Source: a virus
IMG/VR virus record: IMGVR_UViG_3300049491_000255
Coordinates: 1-30,746 of that record
Reading direction: 5' to 3' (one strand)
Length of the DNA: 30,746 nt
Under the pieces are notes generated by a model. The model was not told the DNA's origin, made no database searches, and worked only from the letters and a program-made list of their open reading frames with translations. The translations under genes were made by a program, and so were the position numbers. Shown here in pieces: positions 1 to 30,746 of this stretch (position 1 is its first letter; the number at the start of each line of letters is the position of its first letter).

Positions 1-9
1 GCGTTCGAC

Positions 10-711: not shown

Positions 712-729
712 CGCTGACGACATCGCGGC

Positions 730-753: not shown

Positions 754-865
754 ATCGGCGGGTGGTGACCGCACGCGATCGTCACGGCGGGCCGAGCGTC
801 GTCAGGGTGGCGGTCGGGGCACGGGACGGCACCACCACCTCTCGGCAAAGACATGAGGCGAACAG

Positions 866-1300: not shown

Positions 1301-1318
1301 TAGGGGAAGGGGTGCGGC

Positions 1319-3176: not shown

Positions 3177-3274
3177 GCCTGCGCAAGTTCAGAACCCCGC
3201 GCGAGCGAGCCTTAGACGCGGTGATGATCGTGTTGTCCGTCCTGCTGCTGATGGCCGTGGTGAAGCTCACATGA
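3173..3274 (+). CDS. Small membrane protein (33 aa)
   Basis: GTG start within the GTGA overlap with the previous gene; the stop overlaps the portal ATG (ATGA). The 33-aa product has a basic, hydrophilic first half (RKFRTPRERAL) and a hydrophobic helix (VMIVLSVLLLMAVV), so an N-in single-pass membrane peptide is predicted. Function unknown. Both ends are locked by translational coupling, which is the main evidence for it. Confidence 0.55.
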   Translation: MSLRKFRTPRERALDAVMIVLSVLLLMAVVKLT

Positions 3275-5442: not shown

Positions 5443-5630
5443 GGGTGAGCGTTGGGGGGGTTCCGCTGGCGCGCGCGCAGGCGCGGCTGATCGAGGTGCG
5501 TTGTCCGAGCGAGAAGTGTGCGGCTTCCGTGGTGGCGAGCCTCGACTCGCCGATGGCCAAGTGCAAGGCGTGCGGCCTCGAGTGGCCGTGGTCCAAGAGC
5601 GCGATGATCCGCGCGACGAGAAGGGGTTGA
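5439..5630 (+). CDS. Small zinc-ribbon protein (Com-like?)
   Basis: 63-aa basic protein whose ATG overlaps the portal stop (ATGA). Two cysteine pairs, VRCPSEKCAA and KCKACGLEW, form a treble-clef or zinc-ribbon-like knuckle followed by a basic tail (ATRRG). Mu-like phages carry a small zinc-binding translational regulator (Com), and similar two-CxxC peptides occur near portal/MuF genes. Com-like RNA binding is a possible role, but the spacing (Cx4C, then CxxC) is not diagnostic. Function otherwise unknown. Confidence 0.6.
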   Translation: MRVSVGGVPLARAQARLIEVRCPSEKCAASVVASLDSPMAKCKACGLEWPWSKSAMIRATRRG

Positions 5631-5637
5631 ACTGGAG

Positions 5638-6354: not shown

Positions 6355-6365
6355 CGGGCGTGGTC

Positions 6366-6381
6366 GCCGGGATCACCCGGC
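6366..6381 (+). other. Short hairpin upstream of the capsid gene
   Basis: Perfect 6-bp stem GCCGGG / CCCGGC with a 4-nt loop in the 112-nt gap between the protease and capsid genes. No T-tract follows. It may be an RNA processing or stability element for the capsid message. Nothing else is recognised in the gap apart from the capsid ribosome-binding site (GGAGG at 6452-6456). Confidence 0.3.
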
Positions 6382-6466
6382 ACGGTAGGCGTCGAAGGGC
6401 GCCAGGGAAGTGGCGGGACGGGGCAGGGACGCTCCGGCGACCGGCACACACGGAGGTGGGGACGAG

Positions 6467-8029: not shown

Positions 8030-8042
8030 TCCAGTCGCTGAA

Positions 8043-8080
8043 GGGCGGTGCCGGGGGAGCATGGGCCTCCGGTGCCGCCC
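8043..8080 (+). terminator. Hairpin after the capsid gene
   Basis: A 12-bp stem (GGGCGGTGCCGG paired with CCGGTGCCGCCC, two G-U pairs) around a 14-nt loop starts 13 nt after the capsid stop. A strong RNA structure, but it lacks a T-run, so it may be a leaky terminator or a 3'-end stabiliser that makes capsid mRNA more abundant than downstream messages. Confidence 0.45.
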
Positions 8081-8105
8081 GAAGCGGTTTCCCAAGGAGA
8101 ACGCA

Positions 8106-8303
8106 GTGGCGAAGGTGAAGAACGTGGGCACCGGCATCTACGCGGACGGGGAGATCTTCGTCAACCCCGGCGAGGTGGTCGAGGTGTCGGACGACAAGGC
8201 GAAGTATCTGTGTGATGCGGCCTCTCCTGGCCGGTTCGAGCTGTTGAAGCCCGAGAAGCCGACCATCATTCCCGAGAAGCCGCGGGTGCAGGCGAGCAAG
8301 TAG
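8106..8303 (+). CDS. Hypothetical small protein (65 aa)
   Basis: GTG start at 8106 with AAGGAG 6 nt upstream. The 65-aa product has a compact beta pattern (VGTGIYADGEIFVNPGEVVEV, split by turns) followed by a Lys/Pro-rich tail (PEKPTIIPEKP). Small SH3-like proteins of this look are common between capsid and connector genes in siphophages, where they may be head-tail joining or decoration proteins, but no family is certain. It is coupled to the connector gene by a TAGTG overlap. Confidence 0.65.
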   Translation: MAKVKNVGTGIYADGEIFVNPGEVVEVSDDKAKYLCDAASPGRFELLKPEKPTIIPEKPRVQASK

Positions 8304-9118
8304 TGACGTTCCTCACCCAGCACGCGTTCATTTCGCCCGAGGCGTTGTTGCCTCGGCTGAAGCGTGTTCAGGGTGCGGAGGACGACGTAGAGCAACGCCT
8401 GATCGACTCCATCAACGCGGCAACGCATTGGATGGAACTGGTCACGCGGCGTGGGCTGAAGGCCAGGAATCATCGGAGCACGAGCACGCTGACGGCCACG
8501 GTGACCGACAGCGACACCCAAGTGATCGGGAACTCGTTCAACACGCTGGAGCGAGGCGACGACATCTCGGGCAATGGGGTCAACCCCGGCTCGCAGATCG
8601 GCAGTATCGACAGCCCGGCCATCCTGCAGATGACGCGGAAGGGGAATCAGACGGTCTTTGGCTCGTCGCTGACGTTCGGCTCGCGGCCGCTGCGGTTCTC
8701 GGGCGACGGGACGAACGAGGCGTGGCTCTCGGAGCGACCGCTGGTGGAGGTGTTCTCGCTCTACTCGGTGGCGAGTGACGGGACACAGACGGAGATCGAC
8801 ACGACGGGCGCCAGGTACAACTACGAGTTGGGCCGCATCGTGCTGGGGCAGGACGTGTTCCCGTCCGGGGTGCTGAACATCGCGGCGAACGTGCGATGTG
8901 GATACGAGCAGCCCGAGGAATCGCGGCTGGGCAGTCCCGACTGGTACACGCTGGAGCAACTGGCGATGCGGGCGGCCGAGGTTTTCTTCATGGACGGGTT
9001 GCAGATTCGCGGACGGGCCGAGGACGTGACGTTGTCGAGCATGTCGAGCCGGGTGGCGGCAACGCCGATGCCGGCCGACCTGATCGCCGGGGTCCAGGCG
9101 TTCTACCGGAGGTGGTGA
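8303..9118 (+). CDS. Head-tail connector (gp6-like) with an inserted beta module
   Basis: The GTG start overlaps the upstream TAG. N-terminal residues 10-50 (SPEALLPRLK, ...IDSINAATHWMELVTRRGL) and later segments (RPLVEVFSLYSV..., YNYELGRIVL) match the layout of gp6-like connectors, which dock on the portal ring. Between about residues 60 and 126 it carries an extra segment (NSFNTLERGDDISGNGV, then IGSIDSPAILQMT, then SLTFG) that looks like a beta module also present in the tail hub. At 271 aa it is longer than the usual connector, which the insertion explains. Head completion role inferred from family and position. Confidence 0.72.
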   Translation: MTFLTQHAFISPEALLPRLKRVQGAEDDVEQRLIDSINAATHWMELVTRRGLKARNHRSTSTLTATVTDSDTQVIGNSFNTLERGDDISGNGVNPGSQIGSIDSPAILQMTRKGNQTVFGSSLTFGSRPLRFSGDGTNEAWLSERPLVEVFSLYSVASDGTQTEIDTTGARYNYELGRIVLGQDVFPSGVLNIAANVRCGYEQPEESRLGSPDWYTLEQLAMRAAEVFFMDGLQIRGRAEDVTLSSMSSRVAATPMPADLIAGVQAFYRRW

Positions 9119-9119
9119 C

Positions 9120-9806
9120 GTGATCGGCGTTGCGGTGCGGGGTGCGGAGCGGGTCATGGGGCGGTTGGCTCAGGCGGCAAGCGACATGCACGCCGAGACC
9201 GACCGCGCCATGCGCCTGGCGACCCTCGTCGTGCGGCGCCGTCTGGGCCTGGAGCTGACCGGCGCGGAGGCCAGAGACGGCTTCTGGGGCCGGGTGGGAG
9301 CCCCGGGGAACAAGCTCAGCGCGCGCAGCGGAAAGACGCGCGCGAGCCTCACGCCCGGCACGCGCGTCTACCGCACGGGCAACCTGCTGGTTGGCGTGGT
9401 GGGGTCAGGCGAGAAGCACCTCCGACTGCACGAGGACGGCGGGACCATCTCGGGGACGAGCCCGAAGGGCTACCTGCGCATTCCGACCGCCGAGGCGCAA
9501 ACGCCAGGCGGGTCGGACAGATACACGGGCCGGAGCATCAAGGACATTCCCGGGGCGTTCCTCATCCGCAGCGCGACCGGGAAGCTGTGGGCGGTGACGG
9601 AGGCCGGCGGGCGCTCGAGGCGGGCGACTGTTGGCGGGCTGGTCGGTAAGGCCGGACGGCACTTCAACTTCCTCTACCTGCTGGTGAAGCGCGTGACGGT
9701 CAAGCCGCGGCGCATCTTCGCGCGCGTGCGTGACGAATCGCGCCCGCAAGTGCTGGAACTCACTCAGGGGCGGGTGACCGCGATGGTGCGAAAGGCCAAT
9801 GCGTGA
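9120..9806 (+). CDS. HK97 gp10-like neck / virion morphogenesis protein
   Basis: 228-aa basic protein, GTG start immediately after the connector stop. An N-terminal helix (about 5-45) precedes a basic beta-rich body with SARSGKTRASL, VYRTGNLLVGVVGSG and HLRLHEDGGTISGT. That pattern (a helix then 'L..SG.Lr.S..' and 'Y...hE.G') is typical of the gp10/neck morphogenesis families that join head and tail. The C-terminus is also basic (KPRRIFARVRDESRP). Identification is by pattern and synteny, not by a unique motif. The stop overlaps the next GTG. Confidence 0.55.
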   Translation: MIGVAVRGAERVMGRLAQAASDMHAETDRAMRLATLVVRRRLGLELTGAEARDGFWGRVGAPGNKLSARSGKTRASLTPGTRVYRTGNLLVGVVGSGEKHLRLHEDGGTISGTSPKGYLRIPTAEAQTPGGSDRYTGRSIKDIPGAFLIRSATGKLWAVTEAGGRSRRATVGGLVGKAGRHFNFLYLLVKRVTVKPRRIFARVRDESRPQVLELTQGRVTAMVRKANA

Positions 9807-10288
9807 GCGCACGCCCGCAGGCATTCGTCAATCGCATCTCCGATGCGCTGCTGTTGAACCTGAAGAGCATCGGGCAGTCGGGCACGGGACAGTGGCTGAC
9901 GCGCCCCAAGTGGGTAGAGCGCGGCATTGCTGTGGACGCGCTGAACCTGCCGAAGCCGGCGCTGTTCCTGATGGCGCGCGGCTGGGGTCCGAGCGATCCG
10001 ATCAACCTCATCACGGGCGTGCTGACGGGCCGCGCGGTGGGCAAGTGGGACGTGCTGTGCATATGCGACCAGCCGATGACGAAGCGCGAGGCCGAGCAGG
10101 AGCTGAACAACCTGGCGAGCGATGTCATTGCGGCGGTAGAGCGGGATTACCAGCTCGGCGACCTGCTGCCGATGGGGTGGGTCCACGCGGTGCAGTACAT
10201 GCCCGAAGCCGAGCTGTCGGGATCGACCTTTTCGGTGGCATCGGTGGAACTGGCAGGAACATGGATCTGGGACACGGACAACGTCTAG
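9803..10288 (+). CDS. Putative tail terminator / tail completion protein
   Basis: 161-aa protein, GTG overlapping the previous stop. The gene directly before the tail tube gene usually encodes the tail terminator that caps the tube and joins it to the head. The product starts with a helix (FVNRISDALLLNLKSIG), has a beta/alpha core and ends in a strand-rich segment (STFSVASVELAGTWIWD), a layout consistent with the terminator fold, but no diagnostic motif was seen. Confidence 0.5.
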   Translation: MSARPQAFVNRISDALLLNLKSIGQSGTGQWLTRPKWVERGIAVDALNLPKPALFLMARGWGPSDPINLITGVLTGRAVGKWDVLCICDQPMTKREAEQELNNLASDVIAAVERDYQLGDLLPMGWVHAVQYMPEAELSGSTFSVASVELAGTWIWDTDNV

Positions 10289-10300
10289 GCATGTGACGCG

Positions 10301-10318
10301 CGCGCCACGGATGGCGCG
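10301..10318 (+). other. Hairpin upstream of the tail tube gene
   Basis: Perfect 7-bp stem CGCGCCA / TGGCGCG with a CGGA tetraloop in the 48-nt gap before the tail tube start. It has no T-tract. With the hairpins near the capsid gene it suggests mRNA ends or processing sites around the most abundant virion proteins. Confidence 0.35.
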
Positions 10319-10336
10319 AGCAGGGGGTGAGCAGCG

Positions 10337-11326
10337 ATGGCTGAGGTCGGACAGGGCAGCAAGAGCTATATCCAGTTCGGGCGCGAGGCGACGTGGGGTG
10401 CAGCAGCCACCGCCGCGACCAAGCGCATGGCGTTCCTCTCCCAGAACATCACGCCGAACCTGAAACTGTTGAAGGACGAGTCGCTGGACGGGTTCCACAA
10501 TGCCCAGCGCATCACGAAGGTGATGGAGAGCGCGTCGGGCCAGATCGAGTTCAATCTGACGTATAACGACATGATGCTCTTCTTCGACTGCGCGATGGGC
10601 ACGGACACCTACGCGGCCAACGGCGGCAACACGACCGGCGCGAACCCGTACACCCATGTGTTCACCGACGAGCACGACTTCTTCAACAGCCTCGCGTTCC
10701 AGTTGATCGAGGGCAACACGCCCACGACCAAGTGCCAGTATTTCACGGGTGCCAAGATCGTCGGCATGACGATCGGGTTCGACGCAGCCGGCTACGTGAA
10801 GTGCACGCTCGACATGCTCGGCAAGCGCAAGCATGTGGACCAGACCCCTACGGGCGCACTGACCGCGAGCACGCCGATCTTTGTGCTCTCGTCGCACATG
10901 ACCACGGCCACGGACGGGTCCGGCGACGCCGCGGGAGACATCGTCATCCGCAGCTTCGAGTGGAGCATCAAGCACCAAGGACTGGAAACCCCGCGCGAGG
11001 CCGCTGGCTCGGACTACGTTTTCGAGCCGATCAGGAATGGCAAGACCATGAGCCGGGTGAAGATTCGCAAGGAGTTCCGCACGGTTTCTCTGCTCAACGA
11101 CTTCATCTCGCAGGCGGACAACCCGCTGGTGTTCACGTTCGCTAGCGCCCCCTCGAGCCTTTCGTTCCAGGCGGACGAGACGCGAATCGTGAAGTTCGAG
11201 AACGGAGTGGACAACGCCGGGCTCATTTTCGCCGACATCGAATACGAAGTCCTGTACGTCGATGCCACGCCGGACTACGGCTCGAAGATCACGCTCGTCA
11301 ACGCGCAGGCCACCATCACCGCCTAG
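10337..11326 (+). CDS. Major tail tube protein
   Basis: 329-aa protein that would form the tube. It begins GQGSKSYIQFGREATWG, a common opening of siphophage tube proteins ('s.ii..E...g'), and has the alternating beta pattern with a central segment (SGQIEFNLTYNDMMLFFDCAMG) seen in this family. ATG at 10337 follows AGGGGGTGAG at good spacing. Position directly before the chaperone pair and tape measure supports the call. The C-terminal third includes an extra beta-rich section, perhaps an outer decoration domain. Confidence 0.8.
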   Translation: MAEVGQGSKSYIQFGREATWGAAATAATKRMAFLSQNITPNLKLLKDESLDGFHNAQRITKVMESASGQIEFNLTYNDMMLFFDCAMGTDTYAANGGNTTGANPYTHVFTDEHDFFNSLAFQLIEGNTPTTKCQYFTGAKIVGMTIGFDAAGYVKCTLDMLGKRKHVDQTPTGALTASTPIFVLSSHMTTATDGSGDAAGDIVIRSFEWSIKHQGLETPREAAGSDYVFEPIRNGKTMSRVKIRKEFRTVSLLNDFISQADNPLVFTFASAPSSLSFQADETRIVKFENGVDNAGLIFADIEYEVLYVDATPDYGSKITLVNAQATITA

Positions 11327-17824: not shown

Positions 17825-18655
17825 ATGCGCAAGGGGTGGCTGGTGTGGGCTGTGGGGTTGGCGCTGATGGCCGGGGCCGCCTCGGCGCAGCAGGTGGGTG
17901 ACGGGGCAAAGACGAGCCTCGTGGGCACGAAGATGTCGGGCGTGTACGCACAGGACTCCACGGGCCGCGTGATCCGCATGGACGCGCTCGGGAACGTCCA
18001 GGTGATGGAACAGTACCCGGCGAACGCGGCCTATGAGTACCACCCGGGCGTCATCTCGAACGTGTTCTGGAACGAGACGGACGCGATGTTCGAGGCCGGC
18101 GTCCTGACGAACCGCGACTCGACGGTGGCCTGGGACTGCCGCGGGTTCAACCGCGCGGCGTTGCTGGTGTGGCCGAGCGTCGGACCCGAGACCGACAAGG
18201 GCGGAAGTAGTGCCGATTCCATCGGGCTCATCCTGTTCGCGCTCGAGATGCGCACGCACCCATCGACCAGCTCGGACTCGCTGAACACCTACCCGGTTCC
18301 CGCGTGGCTCAACCGTGAGCCCACGACCGCGTCAGGATTGGCCACGGCTGCCAGGAACGACACCATCGGCTCACTCACGCAGGTGTTCGAGGCCACTGCG
18401 ACGTTCCCGCTTCTTACCACGGCCCTTATGCACGAGAAGGTTGTGGTGCTGAGTGGCATGGCGCTCAACAGCGGTTCGTCTCGCGGTCGCGTGATCTGGA
18501 CCGGAGCCGTGGGCCAGAACCGTCCCGGGGTGTTCCCGTTCAACTCGTGGCGCCTGCGCTGCATCGGCACCTACACGGCCGCCGGCGCTGCCGTCCCGAT
18601 CGCGCAATCTCTGCGGGTCCGCCTGCGCGCCGACCTCGTGCTGTGGAACGAGTAA
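17825..18655 (+). CDS. Secreted beta-rich protein of the fibre region
   Basis: 276-aa protein with a classic Sec signal: basic start MRKGW, hydrophobic core, then AGAASA before QQ. The start at 17825 follows GGGAGCAGGG and gives a clean signal; the upstream in-frame ATG at 17801 would add a hydrophilic lead. The mature part is beta-rich with two cysteines (WDC, LRC), suiting one disulfide, and ends with alternating strands (SLRVRLRADLVLW). It lies in the slot that normally holds receptor-binding or fibre genes. A signal peptide on such a protein is unusual: it may be exported from the infected cell, or be a host-derived gene. No family recognised. Confidence 0.75.
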   Translation: MRKGWLVWAVGLALMAGAASAQQVGDGAKTSLVGTKMSGVYAQDSTGRVIRMDALGNVQVMEQYPANAAYEYHPGVISNVFWNETDAMFEAGVLTNRDSTVAWDCRGFNRAALLVWPSVGPETDKGGSSADSIGLILFALEMRTHPSTSSDSLNTYPVPAWLNREPTTASGLATAARNDTIGSLTQVFEATATFPLLTTALMHEKVVVLSGMALNSGSSRGRVIWTGAVGQNRPGVFPFNSWRLRCIGTYTAAGAAVPIAQSLRVRLRADLVLWNE

Positions 18656-18657
18656 CC

Positions 18658-20697
18658 ATGCGCAGACTACTCGCCGCAGCACTCGCGCTGTGCCTGGCCG
18701 TGCCGGCTTCGGCCGGTCGCATCCGCGTCATCATCCCGCAGGGCACCGAGGGCAGCACGCCGTCGGAGAGCGGGGCGAAGATGCAAGCCTACGTGCGGGT
18801 CGTTCTGGACCGCCTGGGCGTCGAGTACGACTTTCTTCCGCAGCGATTGGTGGCGGAGTCCATGCCCTCGGGCGTTCAGCTTCCGGCCAGCCGGTTGAAC
18901 CAGGCGGCCATTCGGGACTCGGTCTACACCCAAGAGGACGGCAACTCCCGCACCTACATCGGCCAGATCATTTTGGGGTGGCGAGTTGGGCAGGGCACCC
19001 CGGCCCGCATGTCTGGCTTCAAGCCGGACACGCTCACGCGGTCAGCGACCTGGCCGCAGATTCCCACGATCTTCTTCGGCCCAGGCCGCGTCGAGGGCGG
19101 ATCGCAGTTCAACAGCACAGCTACCTGTACCACGGGAGTGCGTGCGGGCACGTCGCTGACGTTCCCCCCGACCAACGCTTTCCAGGTGTCTCAGTACCTG
19201 GTGGGCTCCGGGCTGGTGTGGAAGGGCAACGGCACGATGCCCTACTACGACCGCGCCGCGCCGCTGACGGTGGACCAGACCGCCCCGGGCATCACGAAGG
19301 TGCGCCTGGCCATCGGCTCCGCCTCGCCCTCGTACCGCACGAACGGTGTCTCGTCCTGCACGGACTGCGACTCGATGGCCCGCGAGGACACCTACGCGAC
19401 CGCTGACACCGCGATCATCTGGACGCGCGAACGGTCACTCAACGACCGCGCTCCGCTGATCTTCGCGCCCGGGCTCTATATGTACCAGTCGCCCACCGTT
19501 GATGTTCCGTGCATGTCCATCGCGATGGCGATTGCCATCATGGACTCGGCCTCTGGCGGGCGCATCATCGGCCAGAAGCGCGGGTGGACGCCGCTCAAGA
19601 TGGGCATTCTCATCGAGAACGCGTTCGTTCACACCGACGCGTCCAACCGCAGTCGGTCCTACTACCACGGCCTAGAGTGCTGGTCTGGCAACTGCGACTC
19701 GACCTACCTCAAGGCCGGCATCGACTCGCTGAAGAATCTCGACGTTCCGGTGACGATTGGCGTCAACGTGGACTCAATCGCGTCCTATCCGAATGAGCAG
19801 GCGTGGTGGGGCGGCATCCCGCGGGCGAAGTTCTTCCCGCAGAACTTCACCGCGCTCGAGGCGTCTCTCGGCGTCGTGAATGACACCGCTGGCCGCGCGC
19901 ACCCCATCGACCCGTTCGGGATGCTCCGCTCGCGCACGCTGGTGAGCGGGGCTCGGTACGAGTCCGGTGCGCCGTGCGATCCCGGCGATACGACCTCTTC
20001 GTGCCTGCTGACCTACGCGCGGAACATCCTCAACAGCTTTGCGGCGTTCAACGGCAGGATGAGCGCGGCGATGGCCGGGCAGGATTACAACTACATCCCG
20101 AGCAACTTCAATCGCCGGACCATGCCGGGCGCAGACTCGAACAGCGTCGAAGCGGCCATGCTCCGCGCGGGCTTCCGGGTGGGTGTCATCAATCCGATGG
20201 AGCTGCCCTCGTCGGCAACGGCGCAGTTCGGCATTTCGGTCTCTGGCGTCGTCAAAGAGTCCGACTACAGCAACCCACCGTTCTCTCTGTCGCCGTCATA
20301 TCGCACCCGGTTCATCGGACGCGAGGCCGACAAGCCGCTGGGCAACTTCAAGTGGGTGTTGGGGCGACCCATCGATGCCACGTTCAGCTCGTCCACCGAT
20401 CAGATTGCCGGGCACCCGTTCCCGGAAGAGTTCGTCAACGGGCTCTTTTCCGATAACTGGTATCCGACCTCGACCACGAGCCCGAACGGCATCTCGGCGT
20501 ATTACGCGCACTGGTTCCGCCAGCGGCTGAACGTCGTGTGGATCCGGCCGGCGGACCTCGGCACGCGGCAAGCACCCACGAGCAACGTGATCCAGCCCGG
20601 GTGGTGGTACGTCAAGCATGTGGTCAACCAGGTGCGCGCACTGAACGCGATGGCCGGTCGCAAGATCGTGGACATCGTGGACGTGGGCGAGCTGTGA
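18658..20697 (+). CDS. Large secreted protein, 679 aa, unknown
   Basis: ATG 2 nt after the previous stop. Signal peptide MRRLLAAALALCLAVPASAG followed by RIRVI. The mature protein has eight cysteines (among them SCTDCD, ECWSGNC, APCDPG), an even number suiting disulfides outside the cytoplasm. It opens with an alpha/beta segment (YVRVVLDRLGVEYDFLP) and has a central barrel-like part: KMGILIENAFVHTDA near residue 314 and LDVPVTIGVNVDSI near 361. These weakly recall secreted NodB-type or glycosidase barrels, but I see no complete metal or catalytic motif, so no enzyme call is made. It is the second signal-bearing protein in the tail-fibre slot. Confidence 0.75.
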   Translation: MRRLLAAALALCLAVPASAGRIRVIIPQGTEGSTPSESGAKMQAYVRVVLDRLGVEYDFLPQRLVAESMPSGVQLPASRLNQAAIRDSVYTQEDGNSRTYIGQIILGWRVGQGTPARMSGFKPDTLTRSATWPQIPTIFFGPGRVEGGSQFNSTATCTTGVRAGTSLTFPPTNAFQVSQYLVGSGLVWKGNGTMPYYDRAAPLTVDQTAPGITKVRLAIGSASPSYRTNGVSSCTDCDSMAREDTYATADTAIIWTRERSLNDRAPLIFAPGLYMYQSPTVDVPCMSIAMAIAIMDSASGGRIIGQKRGWTPLKMGILIENAFVHTDASNRSRSYYHGLECWSGNCDSTYLKAGIDSLKNLDVPVTIGVNVDSIASYPNEQAWWGGIPRAKFFPQNFTALEASLGVVNDTAGRAHPIDPFGMLRSRTLVSGARYESGAPCDPGDTTSSCLLTYARNILNSFAAFNGRMSAAMAGQDYNYIPSNFNRRTMPGADSNSVEAAMLRAGFRVGVINPMELPSSATAQFGISVSGVVKESDYSNPPFSLSPSYRTRFIGREADKPLGNFKWVLGRPIDATFSSSTDQIAGHPFPEEFVNGLFSDNWYPTSTTSPNGISAYYAHWFRQRLNVVWIRPADLGTRQAPTSNVIQPGWWYVKHVVNQVRALNAMAGRKIVDIVDVGEL

Positions 20698-22027: not shown

Positions 22028-22360
22028 ATGATGGAGCGCGACCTGCGACAGATGCTGCTCAAGCCCACCACCACCCTGCGGACAACGGAACTCAACGGCA
22101 CCACGCTGGCGTGGGTGGACTACGAGGGGAAGGAAGTCGAGGTGGTGCTGGACCCCATGCGCGGCGGGCTCATCGAGAGCCTTGTGCATGAGCTGATTCA
22201 CGCCGTCTATGCCAAGCAGCTCCGAATCTGGGGACGCAACGAAGAGTGCATCGTCTGTGCGCTAGAGGTCGAACAGATGCACCTCGTCAACAACGACGAG
22301 TCGCGCGTGAGGTGGTGGCGTGACGCCATCAACGCGAAGCTCGACAAGGAGGCTGCTTGA
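22028..22360 (+). CDS. Small HEXXH metallopeptidase-like protein
   Basis: 110 aa from ATG 22028. Contains SLVHELIHAVY (H54, E55, H58), the zincin HEXXH site, with E73 and E80 downstream as possible third ligands, and a Cys pair (CIVC) in that helix. The family could be SprT-like or another minimal zincin; the substrate is unknown. Start uncertain: the only good ribosome site (GGAGG, 22003-22007) is 20 nt before this ATG but 5 nt before an in-frame CTG at 22013, which would add five residues (start, then RTPK). The stop overlaps the TTG of the phosphoesterase gene, so the two may act together. Confidence 0.7.
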   Translation: MMERDLRQMLLKPTTTLRTTELNGTTLAWVDYEGKEVEVVLDPMRGGLIESLVHELIHAVYAKQLRIWGRNEECIVCALEVEQMHLVNNDESRVRWWRDAINAKLDKEAA

Positions 22361-23400
22361 GAGTAGCCGCGGCACTGCCGCTCGCCACCCGCGTGTGCCG
22401 GGGCAAGTGCGAGCGCGAGCTACCGCTCACCGATGAATACTTCCGGCCCACCAAGCCGTCGAAGCGAGTGCCGGACGCCGAGCCCGGCCATCGCGGAACG
22501 TGCCGGCGCTGCAACCACGAGCGCGAGAACGAGCGGAACAAAGACCTGCGCGCCCAGGCGTCCGAGACCAAGGCCGCAGCCCCAAAGGCGCAGTGGAAGC
22601 CGCGCGTGGTGGGCGAGGGCGGAACGGACGGCGGTTTCACCGAGCACCCGGTGGACGGATTCAAGTGGTTCGGCTTCCCGGACACGCACGGCCACAACTG
22701 CGACTGGCAGGCCATCAGTGGCGCGCTCGCGCTGTCCCGCTGGTACAAGGCCGAGCTGATCATCCTGTTCGGCGACCACCTCGACTTCGAGGGCCTGTCC
22801 CGTTTCGACAAACCAGCGTCGTCCGTGTTCAGACTCGGCGAGGACGTTGACGCGGCCCGCAAGTTCCTCGGGCTCGTGCGCGAGTCCAACCCCAACGCTC
22901 GCATCAAGTACATACCAGGCAACCACGAGATGCGTCTACGGCGCTACCTGTGGAAGCACCCGGAGATCGCCGAGCTGCTGGGGTGGGGCGACTTCCCTGT
23001 GCCGAAGATCCTGGGTCTCTCCGAGTTCAACATCGAGTGGGTCGAGGACTGGTTCGTGCGCGGGAATGACAAGTTCATGTGGAAGCACGGCAACGCGGTG
23101 CGCTCCAAGAGCGCGGCCTCGGCGATGGCCGAGCTGGAGCGCAATGGCATCTCCGGCGCATCGGCCCACACGCACCGCCAGGGGCTCCACTACAAACGCA
23201 CGAAGGGCGGCGTGGGCGTCTGGTGCGAGTCGGGGTGCCTGTGCGACCTGAATCCCGGCTACGCCGAGGGCCAGACGATGGACTGGCACCAGGGCGTAAG
23301 CCTTGGCTCGGTGAGCCTCAAGGGCAACGGGTTCACCGTGCTGCCCATCCCGATCATCAAGGGCCGGGCGAAGATCCTCGGCATGGACATCAGCGAGTGA
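22357..23400 (+). CDS. Zinc-ribbon plus calcineurin-like metallophosphoesterase
   Basis: 347 aa. TTG start, supported by AAGGAGG (22346-22352) 4 nt upstream and overlap with the previous stop. Residues 14-52 carry C14-x3-C18 and C49-x2-C52 around a PLTDEYF segment, a zinc ribbon like those fused to phage nucleases. After a basic linker comes a calcineurin-like phosphoesterase with its metal motifs in order: D109-x-H111, G139-D-H-L-D143, G188-N-H-E, H244 and the final H271-T-H273. Phage members act on nucleic-acid or nucleotide phosphates; the zinc ribbon suggests DNA or RNA targeting here (inference). An extra Cys cluster (WCESGCLC, 289-296) follows the active site. Confidence 0.82.
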   Translation: MRVAAALPLATRVCRGKCERELPLTDEYFRPTKPSKRVPDAEPGHRGTCRRCNHERENERNKDLRAQASETKAAAPKAQWKPRVVGEGGTDGGFTEHPVDGFKWFGFPDTHGHNCDWQAISGALALSRWYKAELIILFGDHLDFEGLSRFDKPASSVFRLGEDVDAARKFLGLVRESNPNARIKYIPGNHEMRLRRYLWKHPEIAELLGWGDFPVPKILGLSEFNIEWVEDWFVRGNDKFMWKHGNAVRSKSAASAMAELERNGISGASAHTHRQGLHYKRTKGGVGVWCESGCLCDLNPGYAEGQTMDWHQGVSLGSVSLKGNGFTVLPIPIIKGRAKILGMDISE

Positions 23401-24031: not shown

Positions 24032-24256
24032 ATGGACAAGTGGAAAGCAGCATTCCAGACCTCGGAGGGGTGGGCCACGCTCGTGGCGGCCATCCTCGGC
24101 GCTTTCGTGGCGTTGGGGCTCATGACGCCGGAGCTGTCCAAGGTGGTGCAGGACATCATCACCGCACTGCTCGCCGTCGCGTTCGCCCGCATCGCCAAGA
24201 AGGCCGCAACGCCCGGAGAGACGCCGTTCCAGCCGGCGGCCAAGGCGGCCCGATGA
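24032..24256 (+). CDS. Holin-like membrane protein
   Basis: 74 aa, ATG preceded by AAAGGGAA. Two hydrophobic helices (WATLVAAILGAFVALGLM and VVQDIITALLAVAFARIA) joined by a short turn, then a basic/Pro tail (KKAATPGETPF). Size, two-helix topology and charged C-terminus fit a class II-type holin, which would release the M15 endolysin encoded about 2.3 kb upstream. Other membrane miniproteins nearby are rivals for the role. Confidence 0.6.
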   Translation: MDKWKAAFQTSEGWATLVAAILGAFVALGLMTPELSKVVQDIITALLAVAFARIAKKAATPGETPFQPAAKAAR

Positions 24257-24762
24257 GGTGGTATCTCGTCGCTCTCGCCCTGTTCGTATCACTCCTGCCG
24301 CGCCCCGCGCGCTGCGAGGACGTGAGCCTGCTACACCGAGATCGGGTGACGTTCGGGCTGGGGGCCGGTTACAACTGGTACACGGCTGACCCGACCCCGG
24401 CGATGGTCCGCGAGTTCACCCTGGGCGCGCACCTGGGCTACCCGCTTACCGAGCATGTCGGCCTGGCGCTGGCCGGCGTGTGGGGGACTCGCAACGGCGC
24501 TCTCAGGGTGTCGCCCGAGGCGCGGTGGCGGTTCACCGTGGCCGAGGCGGCGATGGCGTTCGCCGTGGGCTACGACTTCCGATCCGGCAAGGACGACCGG
24601 CTGCCCGAGTTCAAACACGAATGGGCGGTCGGGGCCTACTACGCCCGGCCCGTGTGGCGGGACGTCACCGTGGGCGCCGGCGTGCGCACCGGGCTCGACT
24701 CCAAGCTCTACGACTTGAGCGTGGGCGTTCGCGTCCCGCTCGTGATCGGGAGGGACCATTGA
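24253..24762 (+). CDS. Predicted outer-membrane beta-barrel protein
   Basis: 169 aa, ATGA overlap with the holin candidate. Signal peptide (MRWYLVALALFVSLLPRPA, cleavage near ARC|ED), then about eight amphipathic strands of alternating residues rich in Gly/Tyr/Trp, e.g. VTFGLGAGYNWY, EFTLGAHLGY, GLALAGVWG, EWAVGAYYA, VTVGAGVRTG, and a last strand DLSVGVRVPLVIG. This matches small OmpA/OmpX-size barrels. The last residue is His rather than the usual Phe, a mild doubt for BAM recognition. Phage-encoded barrels can block superinfection or alter the host surface; location in the lysis segment also allows a role in envelope rupture. A Gram-negative host follows if correct. Confidence 0.65.
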   Translation: MRWYLVALALFVSLLPRPARCEDVSLLHRDRVTFGLGAGYNWYTADPTPAMVREFTLGAHLGYPLTEHVGLALAGVWGTRNGALRVSPEARWRFTVAEAAMAFAVGYDFRSGKDDRLPEFKHEWAVGAYYARPVWRDVTVGAGVRTGLDSKLYDLSVGVRVPLVIGRDH

Positions 24763-25694: not shown

Positions 25695-26045
25695 ATGCGG
25701 TTCACGAACAGACAAAGGGATGCCTTGCGGGTGGAAGTCGTAGACACCCGGTTGGTCGTCAGGGATGACGCTGGGCGCACCGTCTGGGAGGACACGGACG
25801 AGCCCAGGATGATTGCTCGACTGTTCGAGTTCGTGGTCGCTCGCGATTGCATCAATGCGCTGGATGAGACTACCGATGTGCTGCAACGCCATGAGGGCCT
25901 GCAGCCACACTACGAGTCCAAACACGCCACGCTAATCGCCCGCAACCGATTGATCCTCGCCGAGTCTCTTCCGTCACCGCGGGACATGGAACGGCTGCTA
26001 ACGCGTAGTCACCAGTTGGGCCTGTGGGGGGAGCGGGCCGCCTGA
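25695..26045 (+). CDS. Hypothetical early protein (116 aa)
   Basis: ATG with AAGGAG 8 nt upstream, first gene after the sigma70-like promoter. The N-terminal half is a compact beta meander (VEVVDTRLVVRDDAGRTVWE), the rest helical and charged (RLFEFVVARDCINALDET, ...MERLLTRSHQLGLW). No Cys pairs, membrane segment or known motif. Its immediate-early position suggests a host-takeover or regulatory role, which is inference only. Confidence 0.7.
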   Translation: MRFTNRQRDALRVEVVDTRLVVRDDAGRTVWEDTDEPRMIARLFEFVVARDCINALDETTDVLQRHEGLQPHYESKHATLIARNRLILAESLPSPRDMERLLTRSHQLGLWGERAA

Positions 26046-26051
26046 CGTGCC

Positions 26052-26093
26052 CAGAGTCGTTAGTTTGTCAATAAACACGACTCTGCATTTCAT
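26052..26093 (+). promoter_or_regulatory. Promoter with operator-like inverted repeat over the -35 box
   Basis: -35 TTGTCA (26065-26070, 5/6) and -10 TTTCAT (26088-26093, 4/6), spacer 17 nt. A perfect 9-bp inverted repeat CAGAGTCGT (26052-26060) / ACGACTCTG (26077-26085) straddles the -35, with an inner GTTT / AAAC repeat. As DNA this is a textbook place for a repressor site; as RNA, for transcription from the upstream promoter, it is a terminator-like hairpin. CGTGCC (26046-26051) and GGCACG (26103-26108) form a further outer repeat. The stretch is visibly AT-richer than its surroundings. Confidence 0.5.
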
Positions 26094-26127
26094 AGACTTA
26101 CGGGCACGGCCTTGCGGTTCGCAACCC

Positions 26128-26150
26128 CCATCGGAAACTTCCGATGGAGG
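26128..26150 (+). promoter_or_regulatory. Hairpin overlapping a ribosome-binding site
   Basis: CCATCGGAA (26128-26136) and TTCCGATGG (26139-26147) are perfect 9-nt inverted arms, giving an 8-bp stem with a 4-nt loop. The first two bases of the GGAGG site (26146-26150) serving GTG 26156 lie in the stem, so folding would reduce translation. A smaller hairpin TTGCG-GTT-CGCAA (26112-26124) precedes it. Confidence 0.45.
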
Positions 26151-26155
26151 ATGCC

Positions 26156-26476
26156 GTGGCCGATACCACGAGCAACACCAAGAGCATCACCAGCACCGGA
26201 GCGCTTGCCCTTCGGATAGGTAGCCGTCGAGTTGTGATTGGCGTTGCCACTCTGGCTGACGCCTCGCGCATGTTCCTGCGCCTGAACTGCAAGGCGATGC
26301 AGCGCGGAAGCATCCTGCGCCACGCCACGGTCCACGACTCCGCCACGATGGAGACGGTCGCCCGCATTTCACAAAACGGCAACGTGTGGCCGAACGCCGA
26401 TTGGTTCTCCGGTATGAGGCCGCTCTACACCCCGACTGACGCAGACTTCGCGGCCTGCCATCAGGACTTGTTCTGA
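26156..26476 (+). CDS. Hypothetical early protein (106 aa)
   Basis: GTG start chosen because GGAGG lies 5 nt upstream; an in-frame ATG at 26144 overlaps that site and would leave no Shine-Dalgarno sequence. The 106-aa product has a beta-rich start (ALALRIGSRRVVIGVATLADA) then helix (SRMFLRLNCKAMQRGS) and ends in an acidic, aromatic segment. Unrecognised. Expression appears to be controlled at both promoter and ribosome-site level. Confidence 0.65.
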   Translation: MADTTSNTKSITSTGALALRIGSRRVVIGVATLADASRMFLRLNCKAMQRGSILRHATVHDSATMETVARISQNGNVWPNADWFSGMRPLYTPTDADFAACHQDLF

Positions 26477-26736
26477 TGACCGCCCCCCGCCTCCATCCCG
26501 TGTTCGCCGCGATTATAGCGGGCTTCATGCCGCCGACCGCTCGCCCCGATGGCGACGCGCCGAACGACACCGAGCGCGAGGACGCCGAGCCCTGCACGCG
26601 CTCCGGCTACGACTTCTGCGACGGCCCCTGCAAGCGCTGCGACGAACGGGCCGAGGCCGCACTCGACAACGAGTGGGACAACCGCCGCGAAGAAGCGGCG
26701 ATCGGGCGCGACTTCGAGCAGGAGCGTGCGTCATGA
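26476..26736 (+). CDS. Small Cys-cluster protein (86 aa)
   Basis: ATG overlapping the previous stop (TGATG). After a short hydrophobic start and an acidic stretch comes a cysteine cluster CTRSGYDFCDGPCKRCDE (C-x8-C-x3-C-x2-C), able to bind zinc, then a charged helix. Family not recognised; a small nucleic-acid or protein-binding zinc knuckle is plausible. Confidence 0.6.
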   Translation: MTAPRLHPVFAAIIAGFMPPTARPDGDAPNDTEREDAEPCTRSGYDFCDGPCKRCDERAEAALDNEWDNRREEAAIGRDFEQERAS

Positions 26737-26900
26737 CCATTCCTGAGTTCCGTCTCGTCCACGCCTACGCCCGGGCCAGTGAACTCGCGATGCGGCTGTA
26801 TGACACGTCCCGCTACGCGCACCACCGGGACCGGGCCGATCGACTCCGCAACCTGCTCCCGGCGCGCTTCGACCGCTGGCTCTCGAGGGCTCCCAAGTGA
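26733..26900 (+). CDS. Hypothetical protein (55 aa)
   Basis: ATGA overlap with the previous gene, GTGA overlap with the next. Helical, Arg/His-rich 55-aa product (HAYARASELAMRLYD, ...HRDRADRLRNLLPARFDRW). Unrecognised. Confidence 0.55.
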   Translation: MTIPEFRLVHAYARASELAMRLYDTSRYAHHRDRADRLRNLLPARFDRWLSRAPK

Positions 26901-27076
26901 CCAAGCGGCAGCGCGTGTACCGCGCCTATTTCCACGCAACACGGCGCTCGCTCTCGGCCCAGAACGCTGTTCGCCGCGAGCAGTGCTGGCGCCTCGCCCA
27001 CCGGCTGGCGCTGTGGCTCGCCGGATACGACCAACTGAACCTGTTCTCGAAAGGACAGACCCATGACGCTCGGTGA
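26897..27076 (+). CDS. Hypothetical basic protein (59 aa)
   Basis: GTG overlaps the previous stop; ends at TGA 27074-27076, overlapping the next gene by 14 nt. The 59-aa product is helical and basic (TKRQRVYRAYFHATRR, then CWRLAHRLALWLAGYDQL). It resembles the preceding 55-aa protein in composition and may be a diverged partner, but the similarity is too weak to claim. Fills an otherwise empty 160-nt stretch. Confidence 0.5.
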   Translation: MTKRQRVYRAYFHATRRSLSAQNAVRREQCWRLAHRLALWLAGYDQLNLFSKGQTHDAR

Positions 27077-27269
27077 GTTCCAGGAGTGGCTGGACGGATT
27101 GGCCCAGAAGCGGCGGGCCGAGCAGAAGCGACGCCGCTACGAAATGGCACGTTTCGAGGAAATGTTCGTCCCCAGCGACGTGCACACGGTCGAGCCCGAC
27201 ATCACGATCGGCGTGGCCGCATTCCTCGGCGAGTGCCGCATCCGCATGTTCGAGCGGGGGCAGCGGTGA
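27063..27269 (+). CDS. Hypothetical protein (68 aa)
   Basis: ATG with AAAGGA about 8 nt upstream. N-terminal charged helix (FQEWLDGLAQKRRAEQKRRR) then a short mixed segment with one Cys. Unrecognised; its stop is followed directly by the next ATG (TGATG). Confidence 0.55.
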   Translation: MTLGEFQEWLDGLAQKRRAEQKRRRYEMARFEEMFVPSDVHTVEPDITIGVAAFLGECRIRMFERGQR

Positions 27270-27364
27270 TGGCGCGCGGGACGTTCTCCGCCGGGCGCGA
27301 CATGCCCATCTGGCTCGTGATCCTGGCGCTCTTGGCATGTGCGTTTGAGTGGGGGGCGAAGTGA
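27269..27364 (+). CDS. Membrane miniprotein (31 aa)
   Basis: ATG overlaps the previous stop. The 31-aa peptide has a polar start and one hydrophobic helix (MPIWLVILALLACAF). Stop overlaps the next GTG. Function unknown; same design as the other phage miniproteins here. Confidence 0.5.
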   Translation: MARGTFSAGRDMPIWLVILALLACAFEWGAK

Positions 27365-27636
27365 CCAACCTCATCGAGAGCGCGCACGTCGTCAACATCA
27401 CGCCAGACAGCGAGGCCGAGCGCCGGCTGTTCATTCAGGCGGCCACCACGGCAAACGAGGCTGTCATCGTGCCGTCTCGGCTCCGGCTCCACTACACCTC
27501 GCCCACCCAGCTCCGCCTGATGCGCGACCTGTTCGACACGCTCGCGTCTCGCATGGAGGCCATCCGAAACGCCGAGGCTGCGCTCGCCAACCACGAGCCG
27601 GCCCTGGAATCCCCCGAGACACCACCCGGAGCGTGA
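27361..27636 (+). CDS. Hypothetical protein (91 aa)
   Basis: GTG overlapping the previous stop. 91 aa: a beta-like start (SAHVVNITPDSEAERRLFI) then helices (LRLMRDLFDTLASRMEAI) and a Pro/Glu-rich end. Unrecognised. Last of the small-gene run before the recombination genes. Confidence 0.6.
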   Translation: MTNLIESAHVVNITPDSEAERRLFIQAATTANEAVIVPSRLRLHYTSPTQLRLMRDLFDTLASRMEAIRNAEAALANHEPALESPETPPGA

Positions 27637-27701
27637 TCGGTCGCCCGGCGGCTCTTGTCCAGAGCACCCGGTATCGGCCGGCAACAGTGACGGCGCTCTA
27701 G
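27633..27701 (+). CDS. Possible micro-ORF (22 aa)
   Basis: GTGA overlap with the previous stop gives a 22-aa frame ending at TAG 27699-27701. Only the coupling pattern supports it. If not real, 27637-27752 is a short intergenic leader with the AAGGAGAGAC ribosome site of the ERF gene. Confidence 0.2.
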   Translation: MIGRPAALVQSTRYRPATVTAL

Positions 27702-27752
27702 GAACCGCCGCACACGGCCGGGCCACCATCCCCCGCAGAAGGAGAGACGAAC

Positions 27753-28565
27753 GTGGCAAAGAGAGCAGAAACCGTCGCAGGGCTGGACCTCGAGACCACT
27801 GCCGTGCCGCCAGCGGCCAGCACCGCGCTCGCCGCGCACAACGGCACGCACCTCGCGGTGATCGTGGACGAATCCGCGCAGGTCATGTCGCTGTTTGACA
27901 AGGCCATCGCGCAGGGGGCCGGCGGAGTCGCGGCACTCGAGCAACTGGTGAACCTGCACGATCGCGTGCAGCGGCGCCGGGCCGAGCTGGAGTTTTCCCG
28001 CGCGCTCGTGGCGTTCCAGCAGAACTGCCCACCCATCCCCAAGTCGAGCACCGCCAACATCCCGACCAAGGGCGGCGGTTCGTTCAAGTACACGTATGCG
28101 GACCTCGAGCAGATCATCGAGACCATCCGGCCGCACCTGGCGGCGCAGGGGTTCTCGTTCTCGTTCGACTCCGCGGTGGCAGACGCCACGCTGACGTGCT
28201 TCTGCACGCTGCGGCACGCGAACGGGCACAGCGACACGACCAGATTCTCGCTTACGACGACATCCGCCTCAGCCATGAGCGAGCAGCAGAAGGTCGGGGC
28301 CGCCCTCACGTTCGCCAAGCGGCAGACGCTCACGAGCATCCTGGGGCTTTCGCTTACCGACGCCGCTCCCGAGCAGGGCACCAGCTTCGTTAGCATTAGC
28401 GACGAGCAGGTGGCCAACCTCGAGGCGCTCATACAGGAGACCGGGTCCGATCGGGGCGGGTTCCTGAAATATCTGGGCATCGACGAGCTGGCCGAGTTGC
28501 CGCTGGCCCGCTACTCGGGCGCGCTCGCGCTGATGGAGCAGAAGCGCAAGGCGGCGAAGCCATGA
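27753..28565 (+). CDS. ERF-family single-strand annealing protein
   Basis: 270 aa, GTG with AAGGAGAG upstream. Residues about 70-205 match the ERF pattern: LEFSRALVAFQQNCPPI, FKYTYADLEQIIETIRPHL, AAQGFSFSFDS, and MSEQQKVGAALTFAKRQTL, followed by SILGLSLTD. ERF proteins bind ssDNA and anneal complementary strands in phage recombination and genome circularisation. The C-terminal part (about 205-270) is helical and acidic, a likely SSB or exonuclease contact. The stop overlaps the exonuclease ATG, as in SSAP-exonuclease pairs. Confidence 0.85.
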   Translation: MAKRAETVAGLDLETTAVPPAASTALAAHNGTHLAVIVDESAQVMSLFDKAIAQGAGGVAALEQLVNLHDRVQRRRAELEFSRALVAFQQNCPPIPKSSTANIPTKGGGSFKYTYADLEQIIETIRPHLAAQGFSFSFDSAVADATLTCFCTLRHANGHSDTTRFSLTTTSASAMSEQQKVGAALTFAKRQTLTSILGLSLTDAAPEQGTSFVSISDEQVANLEALIQETGSDRGGFLKYLGIDELAELPLARYSGALALMEQKRKAAKP

Positions 28566-29284
28566 TCGTGCTGGACGTGCAACAGGGCAGTGCGGAGTGG
28601 CTGCAGGCCCGCCTCGGCATCCCCACGGCGTCTCGTTTCAGCTCGATCATGACACCGAAAACCCGGAAGCCCTCGGCGCAACAGGACAAGTACCTGTGCC
28701 AGCTCCTGGCCGAGCGGCTGCTGGGGCACCCCGTGGACGAGGTCTCGACCGACTTCATGGAGCGCGGCACGATGCTCGAGCCGCAGGCCGTCGCCGCCTA
28801 CGAGTTCCTGCACGACGTAGCGACCGAACCCGTGGGTTTCATGCTCTCGGACGATCGCCGCTACGGCGCATCGCCCGACCGCCTGGTAGGCGCTAACGGG
28901 GCGCTCGAGGTCAAGTGCCTATCCGCCGCCAACCACGTCGCGGCCATGCTCGGCTGGAACAACGAGGACCACATCAGCCAAGTGCAGGGGCAACTCTGGG
29001 TCTCGGGGCTCGCATGGGTGGACAACTTCTTTTTCAACCCCGAGCTACCGAGCCACGAGGTGCGCATCTATCGAGACGAGGTCTACATCGCCGCGCTCTC
29101 CGGGTGCGTGCTGCCGTTCTGTAATCGGCTCGAGGCCGCCTACGCCCAACTCACCGGCGGCACTCCGCCCGCCGGCGCCCACCCCATCCCCGGCATGGAA
29201 GCCGGGGCCGAGGTGTCCGTCACCACCCGCGAATCGGACATCGAACGCGCCCGCCGCAAGCGGGACCACCAGCCCACCAGCTAG
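28562..29284 (+). CDS. Lambda-exonuclease / YqaJ-type recombination nuclease
   Basis: 240 aa, ATGA overlap with the ERF gene. Shows the family signature: QGSAEWLQARLGIPTASRF at the start, RGTMLEPQA (E73), YGASPDRLVG (D106), LEVKC (E116-V-K118) and ISQVQGQLWV. The D-x(n)-E-x-K set is the PD-(D/E)XK active site. It would resect double-stranded ends 5' to 3' to give ssDNA for the ERF partner. The C-terminal 60 residues are Pro/charged and unconserved. Confidence 0.9.
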   Translation: MIVLDVQQGSAEWLQARLGIPTASRFSSIMTPKTRKPSAQQDKYLCQLLAERLLGHPVDEVSTDFMERGTMLEPQAVAAYEFLHDVATEPVGFMLSDDRRYGASPDRLVGANGALEVKCLSAANHVAAMLGWNNEDHISQVQGQLWVSGLAWVDNFFFNPELPSHEVRIYRDEVYIAALSGCVLPFCNRLEAAYAQLTGGTPPAGAHPIPGMEAGAEVSVTTRESDIERARRKRDHQPTS

Positions 29285-29292
29285 GAGACGCC

Positions 29293-29706
29293 ATGCCGAG
29301 TATCAACCGCATCACGATCATGGGCCACCTCGGGAAAGACCCCGAGCTGCGCCACACCCAGGGCGGCAAGCCGTTCGCCACGTTCTCCGTCGCCACCAGT
29401 GAGAAGTGGAACGACGCCGCCGGCAACCCGCAAGAGCGCACCGAGTGGCACAACGTCTCCGTGTTCACCAAGTCCGCCGAGGCGTGCGTGAAGTATCTCA
29501 AGAAGGGATCGCTCGTTTACGTCGAGGGCAAGCTGCAGTCGCGCGAGTACGAGAAAAACGGCGTGAAGATGCGCGCCTACGACATCAGCGCGTTCGATGT
29601 GAAGTTCCTGGACGGCCGCGACACCAGCAAGCCCGCAGCGAACACACCGGCGAGCGGTGGTCCTAGCTGGGAAGAACTGCCGGCGGATAGCGACCTTCCG
29701 TTCTAG
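29293..29706 (+). CDS. ssb: Single-stranded DNA-binding protein
   Basis: 137 aa, ATG with GGAG upstream. Typical OB-fold SSB: INRITIMGHLGKDPELRHT, FATFSVATSEKWND, ERTEWHNVSVFTKSAEACV, YLKKGSLVYVEGKLQSREY. The linker is short and the last residues are DSDLPF, the conserved acidic tip that recruits partner proteins. Completes the annealase-exonuclease-SSB set. Confidence 0.95.
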   Translation: MPSINRITIMGHLGKDPELRHTQGGKPFATFSVATSEKWNDAAGNPQERTEWHNVSVFTKSAEACVKYLKKGSLVYVEGKLQSREYEKNGVKMRAYDISAFDVKFLDGRDTSKPAANTPASGGPSWEELPADSDLPF

Positions 29707-29713
29707 ACGATGT

Positions 29714-29786
29714 GGGGCGGGAACGGCGCGCGCTGTCCCCGGAGGACGTGGCCACGCCGGCCAGGTGTGGGGCCTGGACCCGCCCC
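29714..29786 (+). other. Structured leader between SSB and secreted genes
   Basis: GGGGCGGG (29714-29721) pairs with CCCGCCCC (29779-29786). Inside are the perfect palindrome CGTGGCCACG (29747-29756) and the small hairpin CCAGG / CCTGG (29761-29777), giving a branched fold. It fills most of the 123-nt gap before the secreted gene. No T-run. Could be a terminator, an RNA regulator or a protein-binding site; frames running through it look non-coding. Confidence 0.35.
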
Positions 29787-29829
29787 AGTTCACGCTGCAA
29801 ACGATCCACTGACAGAAGGAGATCCACCG

Positions 29830-30456
29830 ATGATGAACGCCAGAAAGTTGCTTCCGCTACTGCTGCTAACGCTGTTCGCCGTCCCGTCGCAAGCCACCAT
29901 GAACATCAGCCTGGGCACGCCGTTCACGGTCAACGGTCACACCTACGTCCCGGTCATCGGCACGGACATTCCGAGCGACTTGACGTGGGCCGGGAACATC
30001 AGCCTCGCCGTTACGGGCTCGATCGCGCCCGACTCCGGGCTCTGGACCAACACGTTCAGCGACGTGTGGCCCAACGGTGGCGGCGCATCTCTCCCGCTGC
30101 CGTTCACCTCGTTCGCCAACGATGACATCGGCTTCGGCTGCTGCCAGTGGTACGTGAATGTCGGCTACAGCAACTCAGCCGAGTGCGGCGTCGCCGAGGA
30201 CAGCGGCCTCATGGGCGCGTTCGCCGTCACGGGGTGCGGATCCATCGCCATCACCAACACGTTCCGCATGGCGACCGACTGCCACGACGATCCCGTGACC
30301 TTCACCGTCAACACCACGCCCGTGTACTTCGGATGCGCGGGTGGCGGCGGCGGAGTCGGTGAAGAAGCCATGAGTTCGAGCACCGAGGCGACGCCAGCTG
30401 CCAAGTCGGCCGCGAGGCGCACGACCTGGGCCACCATCAAGTCGTTCTATCGCTAG
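29830..30456 (+). CDS. Secreted cysteine-containing protein, paralogue 1
   Basis: 208 aa from ATG 29830 (AAGGAG 7 nt upstream). Signal peptide MMNARKLLPLLLLTLFAVP, cleavage after SQA. The mature part starts TMNISLGTPFTVNGHTYVPV and is beta-rich with six cysteines (GCC, EC, GC, DC, GC), suiting three disulfides outside the cytoplasm. A run of five Gly is followed by a Ser/Ala-rich tail and basic end (TTWATIKSFYR). No family recognised. The next gene is a clear relative (27 of the first 45 mature residues identical). Role could be host-surface or extracellular, for example lysogenic conversion, but nothing proves it. Confidence 0.8.
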   Translation: MMNARKLLPLLLLTLFAVPSQATMNISLGTPFTVNGHTYVPVIGTDIPSDLTWAGNISLAVTGSIAPDSGLWTNTFSDVWPNGGGASLPLPFTSFANDDIGFGCCQWYVNVGYSNSAECGVAEDSGLMGAFAVTGCGSIAITNTFRMATDCHDDPVTFTVNTTPVYFGCAGGGGGVGEEAMSSSTEATPAAKSAARRTTWATIKSFYR

Positions 30457-30468
30457 GGGGGCTGCGCG

Positions 30469-30746
30469 ATGAACAGGGCCGCACTAACGCTCGCGCTGTT
30501 GCTGTTCGCTGTCGCCGCACGCGCGACGATGACCATCTCTCTCGGCACGCCGTTCCAGCACAACGGCGTTACGTACGTGCCCATCATGGGCAGCAACATC
30601 CCGTCGAAGCTGTCGTGGTTCGACAGCATCGGACTAACGTTCACCGACTCTATCGCTGTGACCACAGACGGCGCCGGCTCGGACACGCTGCAGACCGTGT
30701 GGCCCCACAACACGTGGCCCACGCTGCCGTACGGCGTGGGCGGGGC
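30469..30746 (+). CDS. Secreted protein, paralogue 2, 3'-partial
   Basis: ATG 12 nt after the previous stop, with a G6 run upstream; open to the window end (92 codons seen). Signal peptide MNRAALTLALLLFAVAARA, then TMTISLGTPFQHNGVTYVP, aligned closely with paralogue 1 (NGxTYVP, IPSxL, W, SIA and later VWP shared). The seen part has no cysteine; the equivalent Cys region of paralogue 1 comes later. Tandem duplication with divergence suggests selection on an exported product. Confidence 0.75.
   Translation, partial: MNRAALTLALLLFAVAARATMTISLGTPFQHNGVTYVPIMGSNIPSKLSWFDSIGLTFTDSIAVTTDGAGSDTLQTVWPHNTWPTLPYGVGG

Follow-up and report, generated by a model that had tools for sequence, protein, structure and literature searches.

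Why would a phage place two similar secreted proteins directly after its recombination genes, and where would these proteins go? The question arises at the right-hand end of a 30746-bp virus record. We analysed this stretch as a whole (the window, to which all coordinates refer unless a contig is named). The window is the entire record, which is classed as linear, and thus holds no sequence downstream of the second gene. A sequence-only reading had proposed for the pair an exported effector with a surface-modifying or exclusion function. Its interpretation stands in part: export, paralogy and a family reaching past the window are supported, while a C-terminal tag had been missed.

Two predicted exported paralogs follow the recombination genes

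Copy 1 (29830..30456, + strand) encodes a predicted exported protein of 208 aa, and its six cysteines, at residues 104, 105, 119, 136, 151 and 169, agree exactly with the number given before. Copy 2 (30469..30746, +) starts 12 bp past the copy 1 stop and is the 5' part of a paralog, 92 aa long where the record end cuts it. As previously read, each of the two adjacent genes begins with a hydrophobic signal peptide that satisfies a crude signal-peptide rule: MMNARKLLPLLLLTLFAVPSQA in copy 1 (29830..29895, +), with predicted cleavage before TM, and MNRAALTLALLLFAVAARA in copy 2 (30469..30525, +). The signal peptides end in A-T-M (cleavage regions SQATMN and ARATMT, respectively), and a lipobox cysteine is absent from the cleavage region of both copies.

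The similarity of the mature N-termini, given earlier as 27 identities in 45 residues, was reproduced exactly. BLASTP aligns copy 1 with copy 2 at 50% over 68 residues (E=2e-17), and their mature parts reach a local score of 163 against a maximum of 67 among 500 shuffles. Both copies show the GC distribution over codon positions expected of a coding frame (0.51/0.56/0.88 in copy 1), and no further copies were found elsewhere in the 30746-bp window.

The position of the array beside recombination genes was confirmed. It comes directly after, and on the same strand as, an ERF-type ssDNA annealing protein (27753..28565, +; Pfam PF04404, E=1e-13; PHROG 155, E=1e-23), a YqaJ-type exonuclease (28562..29284, +; PF09588, E=2e-19) and SSB (29293..29706, +; PF00436, E=3e-32), the last conserved gene before the array. 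The intergenic stretch 29707..29829 (+) that separates SSB from the array showed neither a sigma-70-like promoter nor an intrinsic terminator, so co-transcription with the recombination genes, and hence early expression, is plausible.

At least four more proteins of this phage begin with signal peptides (10-711, 17825-18655, 18658-20697 and 24253-24762), and three of these lie within or beside the structural region, an unusual trait in a tailed phage. The start of the 10-711 protein is seen, at about 167-262, in contig L004, which is 100% identical to the window over 1-11212. The metallophosphoesterase at 22357-23400 carries a Cys-rich segment at its N-terminus, with weak similarity to phage endonuclease VII (PHROG 1035, E=6e-5).

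Could the two paralogs themselves be unusual virion components with signal peptides? The proteins at 10-711, 17825-18655 and 18658-20697, in or near the structural region, would be companions of that sort. However, none of the other signal-peptide proteins of the phage carries the C-terminal tag described below, the structural block ends about 9 kb upstream of the array, and neither copy matched a PHROG head, tail or virion family at E<=10. We consider a virion role very improbable. The view that the genes lie outside the virion module is upheld, and their place in the early region after ERF, YqaJ and SSB fits a non-virion role.

A sister contig carries another paralog

Contig L002 (IMGVR_UViG_3300043406_000127, 4393 bp), from the same metagenome as L004, is 99.95% identical to window 25881-29735 (3855 bp). 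It departs after 29735, 29 bp past the SSB stop, and passes directly into another paralog, of which it holds the 3' half; this half is 49% identical to copy 1 over the C-terminal half of the latter (E=3e-19). The junction ORF lacks a signal peptide; L002 is without copy 1 and without the front of a copy, and the 210 bp past the paralog stop hold no further copy. The fragment may represent the part of copy 2 that the record end cuts off, or it may belong to a different copy; the junction could reflect a deletion in the sister phage or an assembly chimera. When the downstream flank of the array was sought in viral contigs, only L002 itself matched.

The paralog fragment in L002 indicates that the family extends past the end of the window and that the locus is structurally variable, in support of the earlier suggestion of a larger array beyond the window. 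Degraded, non-coding downstream copies had been named as grounds against an exported function. L002 does hold only a 3' fragment without a signal peptide, yet this speaks for dispensability and not for absent coding.

The protein bodies match no described family

That the two proteins match no known family was borne out in every collection searched. The profile search suggested earlier was run, and the copies had no match in Pfam, PHROG or NCBIfam even at E<=10; tblastn in 50,697 phage records and a PDB sequence search likewise gave no match. When the protein and the paralog alignments were run against viral contigs and genomes, L002 was the sole relative recovered, and the few body-search matches at E=0.01-0.5 were short and judged to be chance. 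Structure prediction from one or three sequences (pLDDT 35 and 32) gave no usable fold.

A C-terminal tag is shared with proteins of uncultured bacteria

Both intact 3' ends, those of copy 1 (ARRTTWATIKSFYR) and of the L002 copy (AKRTTWGSIKAFYR), read RTTWxxIKxFYR-stop, each after a Gly-rich stretch. In copy 1 the Gly-rich stretch and linker occupy 30337..30423 (+) and are conserved in the L002 copy; the tag itself, TWATIKSFYR with its stop codon (30424..30456, +), is the sole tag match in the window, with 0 in 100 shuffles under a looser pattern. The C-terminus of copy 2 is cut off by the record end, and the tag is known in this family from copy 1 and the L002 copy only.

These tails resemble those of Eisenbacteria proteins, a likeness that served only as a lead and was put to a genome scan. 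The defining motif is T-W-G-x-[IV]-K-x-[LIMF]-Y-R directly before the stop, in a protein with an N-terminal signal peptide. A profile HMM of the host tag matched the L002 copy, which has the exact motif, at E=1.7e-8, and copy 1, with A for G and F for L, weakly (E=0.0035 with Z=1000). At the DNA level, about 85,000 genomes were scanned for the pattern TW[GA]x[IVM]Kx[LFIMV]YR-stop, which occurred in at least 116 stretches. Among the matches listed, titled records were overwhelmingly Candidatus Eisenbacteria, Krumholzibacteriota and Latescibacterota, with a few Gemmatimonadota and one each of Zixibacteria, Poribacteria, a Planctomycetota-labelled and a Fibrobacter-labelled record (taxa from record titles); many were "bacterium" MAGs without a taxon in the title. 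Of 47 genomes in one phylum 37 carry the tag, and of 80 in another 41 do.

The motif is linked to the stop codon. In 32 genomes, picked for at least one tag, a selection that explains about 32 of the 233 stop-linked matches, a stop codon came directly after the motif in 233 cases (at most 21 in one genome) and a sense codon, counted as one starting with A, C or G, in 15 (totals summed from tables by hand); a motif placed at random would run on into sense about 12 times for each stop. The reversed pattern gave 0 matches in these genomes. Half of the sense-continued matches, seven places, lie in a single Krumholzibacteriia MAG (G007) and are possibly variant tails with extra residues after YR.

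Tagged proteins are also enriched in signal peptides. The crude rule was passed by 84 of 106 complete tagged ORFs compared with 134 of 299 coding-like neighbours (p=5e-10), the high rate in the latter being due to the crudeness of the rule. Many tagged failures were start-site problems, and by eye a signal peptide is present on nearly all complete tagged proteins. The bodies of the tagged proteins are diverse and the genes often tandem. For ten tagged proteins from hosts and viruses, NCBIfam gave nothing at E<=0.1 and Pfam nothing above its cut-off. No Pfam or NCBIfam model and no description of the tag was found, the literature search covering open-licence papers, and the tag is apparently undescribed.

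Eisenbacteria genomes hold tandem sets that resemble the phage array. Each set (alignment A4) has 3-5 tagged secreted proteins of about 245 aa with 7-11 cysteines, spaced about 0.8-1 kb apart (loci L145 and L148-L152, at G053:C51, G016:C94, G050:C15, G023:C27, G004:C153 and G054:C89). These Cys-rich paralogs are apparently an undescribed protein family. Like the phage genes they combine tandem arrangement, signal peptide, cysteines and a tail, theirs being TP[VT]RNxTWGxIKSxYR; one set ends in TWGAIKSFYR, close to the phage tails. When the phage family was compared with the A4 family by hhalign, the tail alone aligned (about 37 columns, E=6e-7). With the alignment confined to the tail, the phage bodies are not detectably members of the A4 host family.

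A host-type tail, together with the state of L002, which lacks copy 1 and the start of a copy and keeps a signal-less 3' fragment, might suggest that the phage genes are host genes captured recently, without a phage role and now decaying. We find this improbable. A body homolog was found neither in the 32 tagged genomes nor in the 47-genome phylum, which argues against recent capture from a sampled host. Moreover, the copies have plausible ribosome-binding sites and intact frames, and purifying selection is, on the substitutions observed, acting on them: dN is 0.40 and dS 1.04 between copy 1 and the copy 2 N-terminus (46 codons), and dN 0.31 and dS 0.96 between copy 1 and the L002 copy at the C-terminus (dN/dS about 0.32), giving dN/dS of about 0.3-0.4 between copies. 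Tagged secreted genes also recur in other viral contigs.

Tagged proteins occur on other viral contigs

Nine of 2.9 million viral contigs carry the tag pattern, L002 and eight others. In the eight others the tagged bodies are unrelated to those of the window, and most have visible signal peptides; one phosphoesterase is common to the tagged proteins of L129 and L130. Clear phage genes establish a phage context for L128, L129, L134 and L136, and L131, L132 and L133 are viral by record only. Two of the contigs have structural proteins in common with the window, L128 a tail-region protein (33%, E=1e-28) and L136 the tape-measure (E=1e-23) and another tail-region protein (E=4e-11).

Large putative secreted or hydrolase-like proteins lie near the tagged genes at L134 3599-4819 (-) and L128 5206-6480 (-). 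A second viral protein on L131, at 9072-9443 (-), has the variant tail SATWGRVKADFR, which suggests that the tag tolerates change near its end.

The kinds of proteins tagged raise the question of whom they serve. By eye, other tagged viral proteins include phosphoesterase-like and LamG-like ones, and the host tandem arrays of tagged 7-11-Cys secreted proteins suggest that the phage cassette copies a host gene-family style. Both would suit cargo of the lysogenic-conversion or fitness kind, in which the tagged exported proteins serve the host as adhesin, binding protein or in scavenging rather than in exclusion, and no sequence feature of the proteins is specific to exclusion. On the other hand, no integrase was seen in the window (the record is incomplete), and the genes adjoin recombination genes, not an obvious lysogeny module. 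We regard cargo of this kind as a possible but rather unlikely explanation, though a better one than decay or a virion role.

A proposed route to the host surface

We favour, at a probability of roughly 60%, an accessory (moron) cassette of early, host-tagged exported proteins that would alter the cell surface of an Eisenbacteria-like host. Within this reading, the predicted export and the tag are well supported by the sequence; the host lineage, sorting by the tag, a surface location and early expression we infer, and superinfection exclusion or receptor masking would be a guess. The host-type tag suggests display by the host's own sorting route, and in this it gives independent support to the idea of exported, surface-acting proteins.

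In the proposed mechanism, the proteins would probably be made early, given that the array follows ERF-YqaJ-SSB on the same strand, and would leave by Sec via the N-terminal signal peptide. Each would form a small folded domain, which holds cysteines in copy 1 and in the L002 copy, followed by the Gly-rich linker and the tag TTWxxIKxFYR. The presumed host lineage, Candidatus Eisenbacteria with Krumholzibacteriota and relatives, uses this tag at the extreme C-terminus of many otherwise unrelated secreted proteins. A putative host component would recognise the tag, and the phage proteins would end up on the outer membrane or past it, displayed at the cell surface or exported. Infected or lysogenic cells would thereby have an altered surface, whose most likely use would be to keep competing phages from adsorbing or from passing their DNA into the cell.

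The wider claim, that TWGxIKxLYR-stop is an undescribed phylum-scale Eisenbacteria-like sorting signal which several unrelated or distantly related phages acquired or evolved on secreted proteins to reach the host surface, is in our estimate evenly balanced. Phage relatives in the candidate hosts were sought as well. No close prophage was found by MCP and TerL in the Eisenbacteria phylum or by TerL in the Krumholzibacteriota phylum, and the only terminase match in the host search was 22% identical, in one genome.

What is new is an apparently undescribed, putative protein-sorting tag in almost wholly uncultured phyla, present on viral contigs too. If true, the tag would give a handle on the surface proteome of Eisenbacteria-like bacteria and a practical marker for host assignment of uncultured phages, and it would illustrate how phages can take over a sorting address of the host for their own accessory proteins.

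Comparison with known sorting signals and exclusion proteins

The C-terminal domains of type IX secretion system (T9SS) substrates are folded and longer than the tag. The T9SS, of Bacteroidota and related phyla, is a candidate route because SprA (PF14349) is common in the tag-using phyla: it is encoded by 26 of 29 tagged genomes. Likewise, T9SS substrates combine a signal peptide with a C-terminal targeting region. In contrast to them, the copies have no match to a type A or B C-terminal domain (Pfam, NCBIfam, E<=10). Of the 10 genomes without the tag in the 47-genome phylum, 8 also encode SprA, and across the 47 genomes 31 have both tag and SprA, 6 the tag alone, 8 SprA alone and 2 neither. 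The presence of SprA does not track the tag, and this co-occurrence gives no support to the T9SS as tag machinery.

Tripartite C-terminal sorting tags such as LPXTG, PEP-CTERM, GlyGly-CTERM and MYXO-CTERM (PMC11980579) offer another comparison. The likeness is that of a short lineage-wide C-terminal motif on many unrelated signal-peptide proteins, and with MYXO-CTERM also that of phylum-wide use, on dozens of proteins per genome. However, the tripartite tags have a transmembrane helix and a basic cluster, whereas the phage tail GGGGGVGEEAMSSSTEATPAAKSAARRTTWATIKSFYR (the last ~40 residues) has no hydrophobic stretch, and the tag here is the last ~11 residues, ending in YR-stop, without a separate basic cluster and without an NCBIfam match. 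Lacking a transmembrane helix, the tag is unlike the tripartite ones.

As to function, Ltp of Streptococcus thermophilus phage TP-J34 is a phage-encoded, surface-exposed superinfection-exclusion lipoprotein (PMC3952083). Like Ltp, the copies are phage-encoded, predicted to be exported and part of an accessory module; surface exposure is shown for Ltp and inferred here. Unlike Ltp, they have no lipobox cysteine, bear a host-type C-terminal tag and stand in a tandem array. Surface exclusion is a guess that we draw from analogy with Ltp and not from membership of its family.
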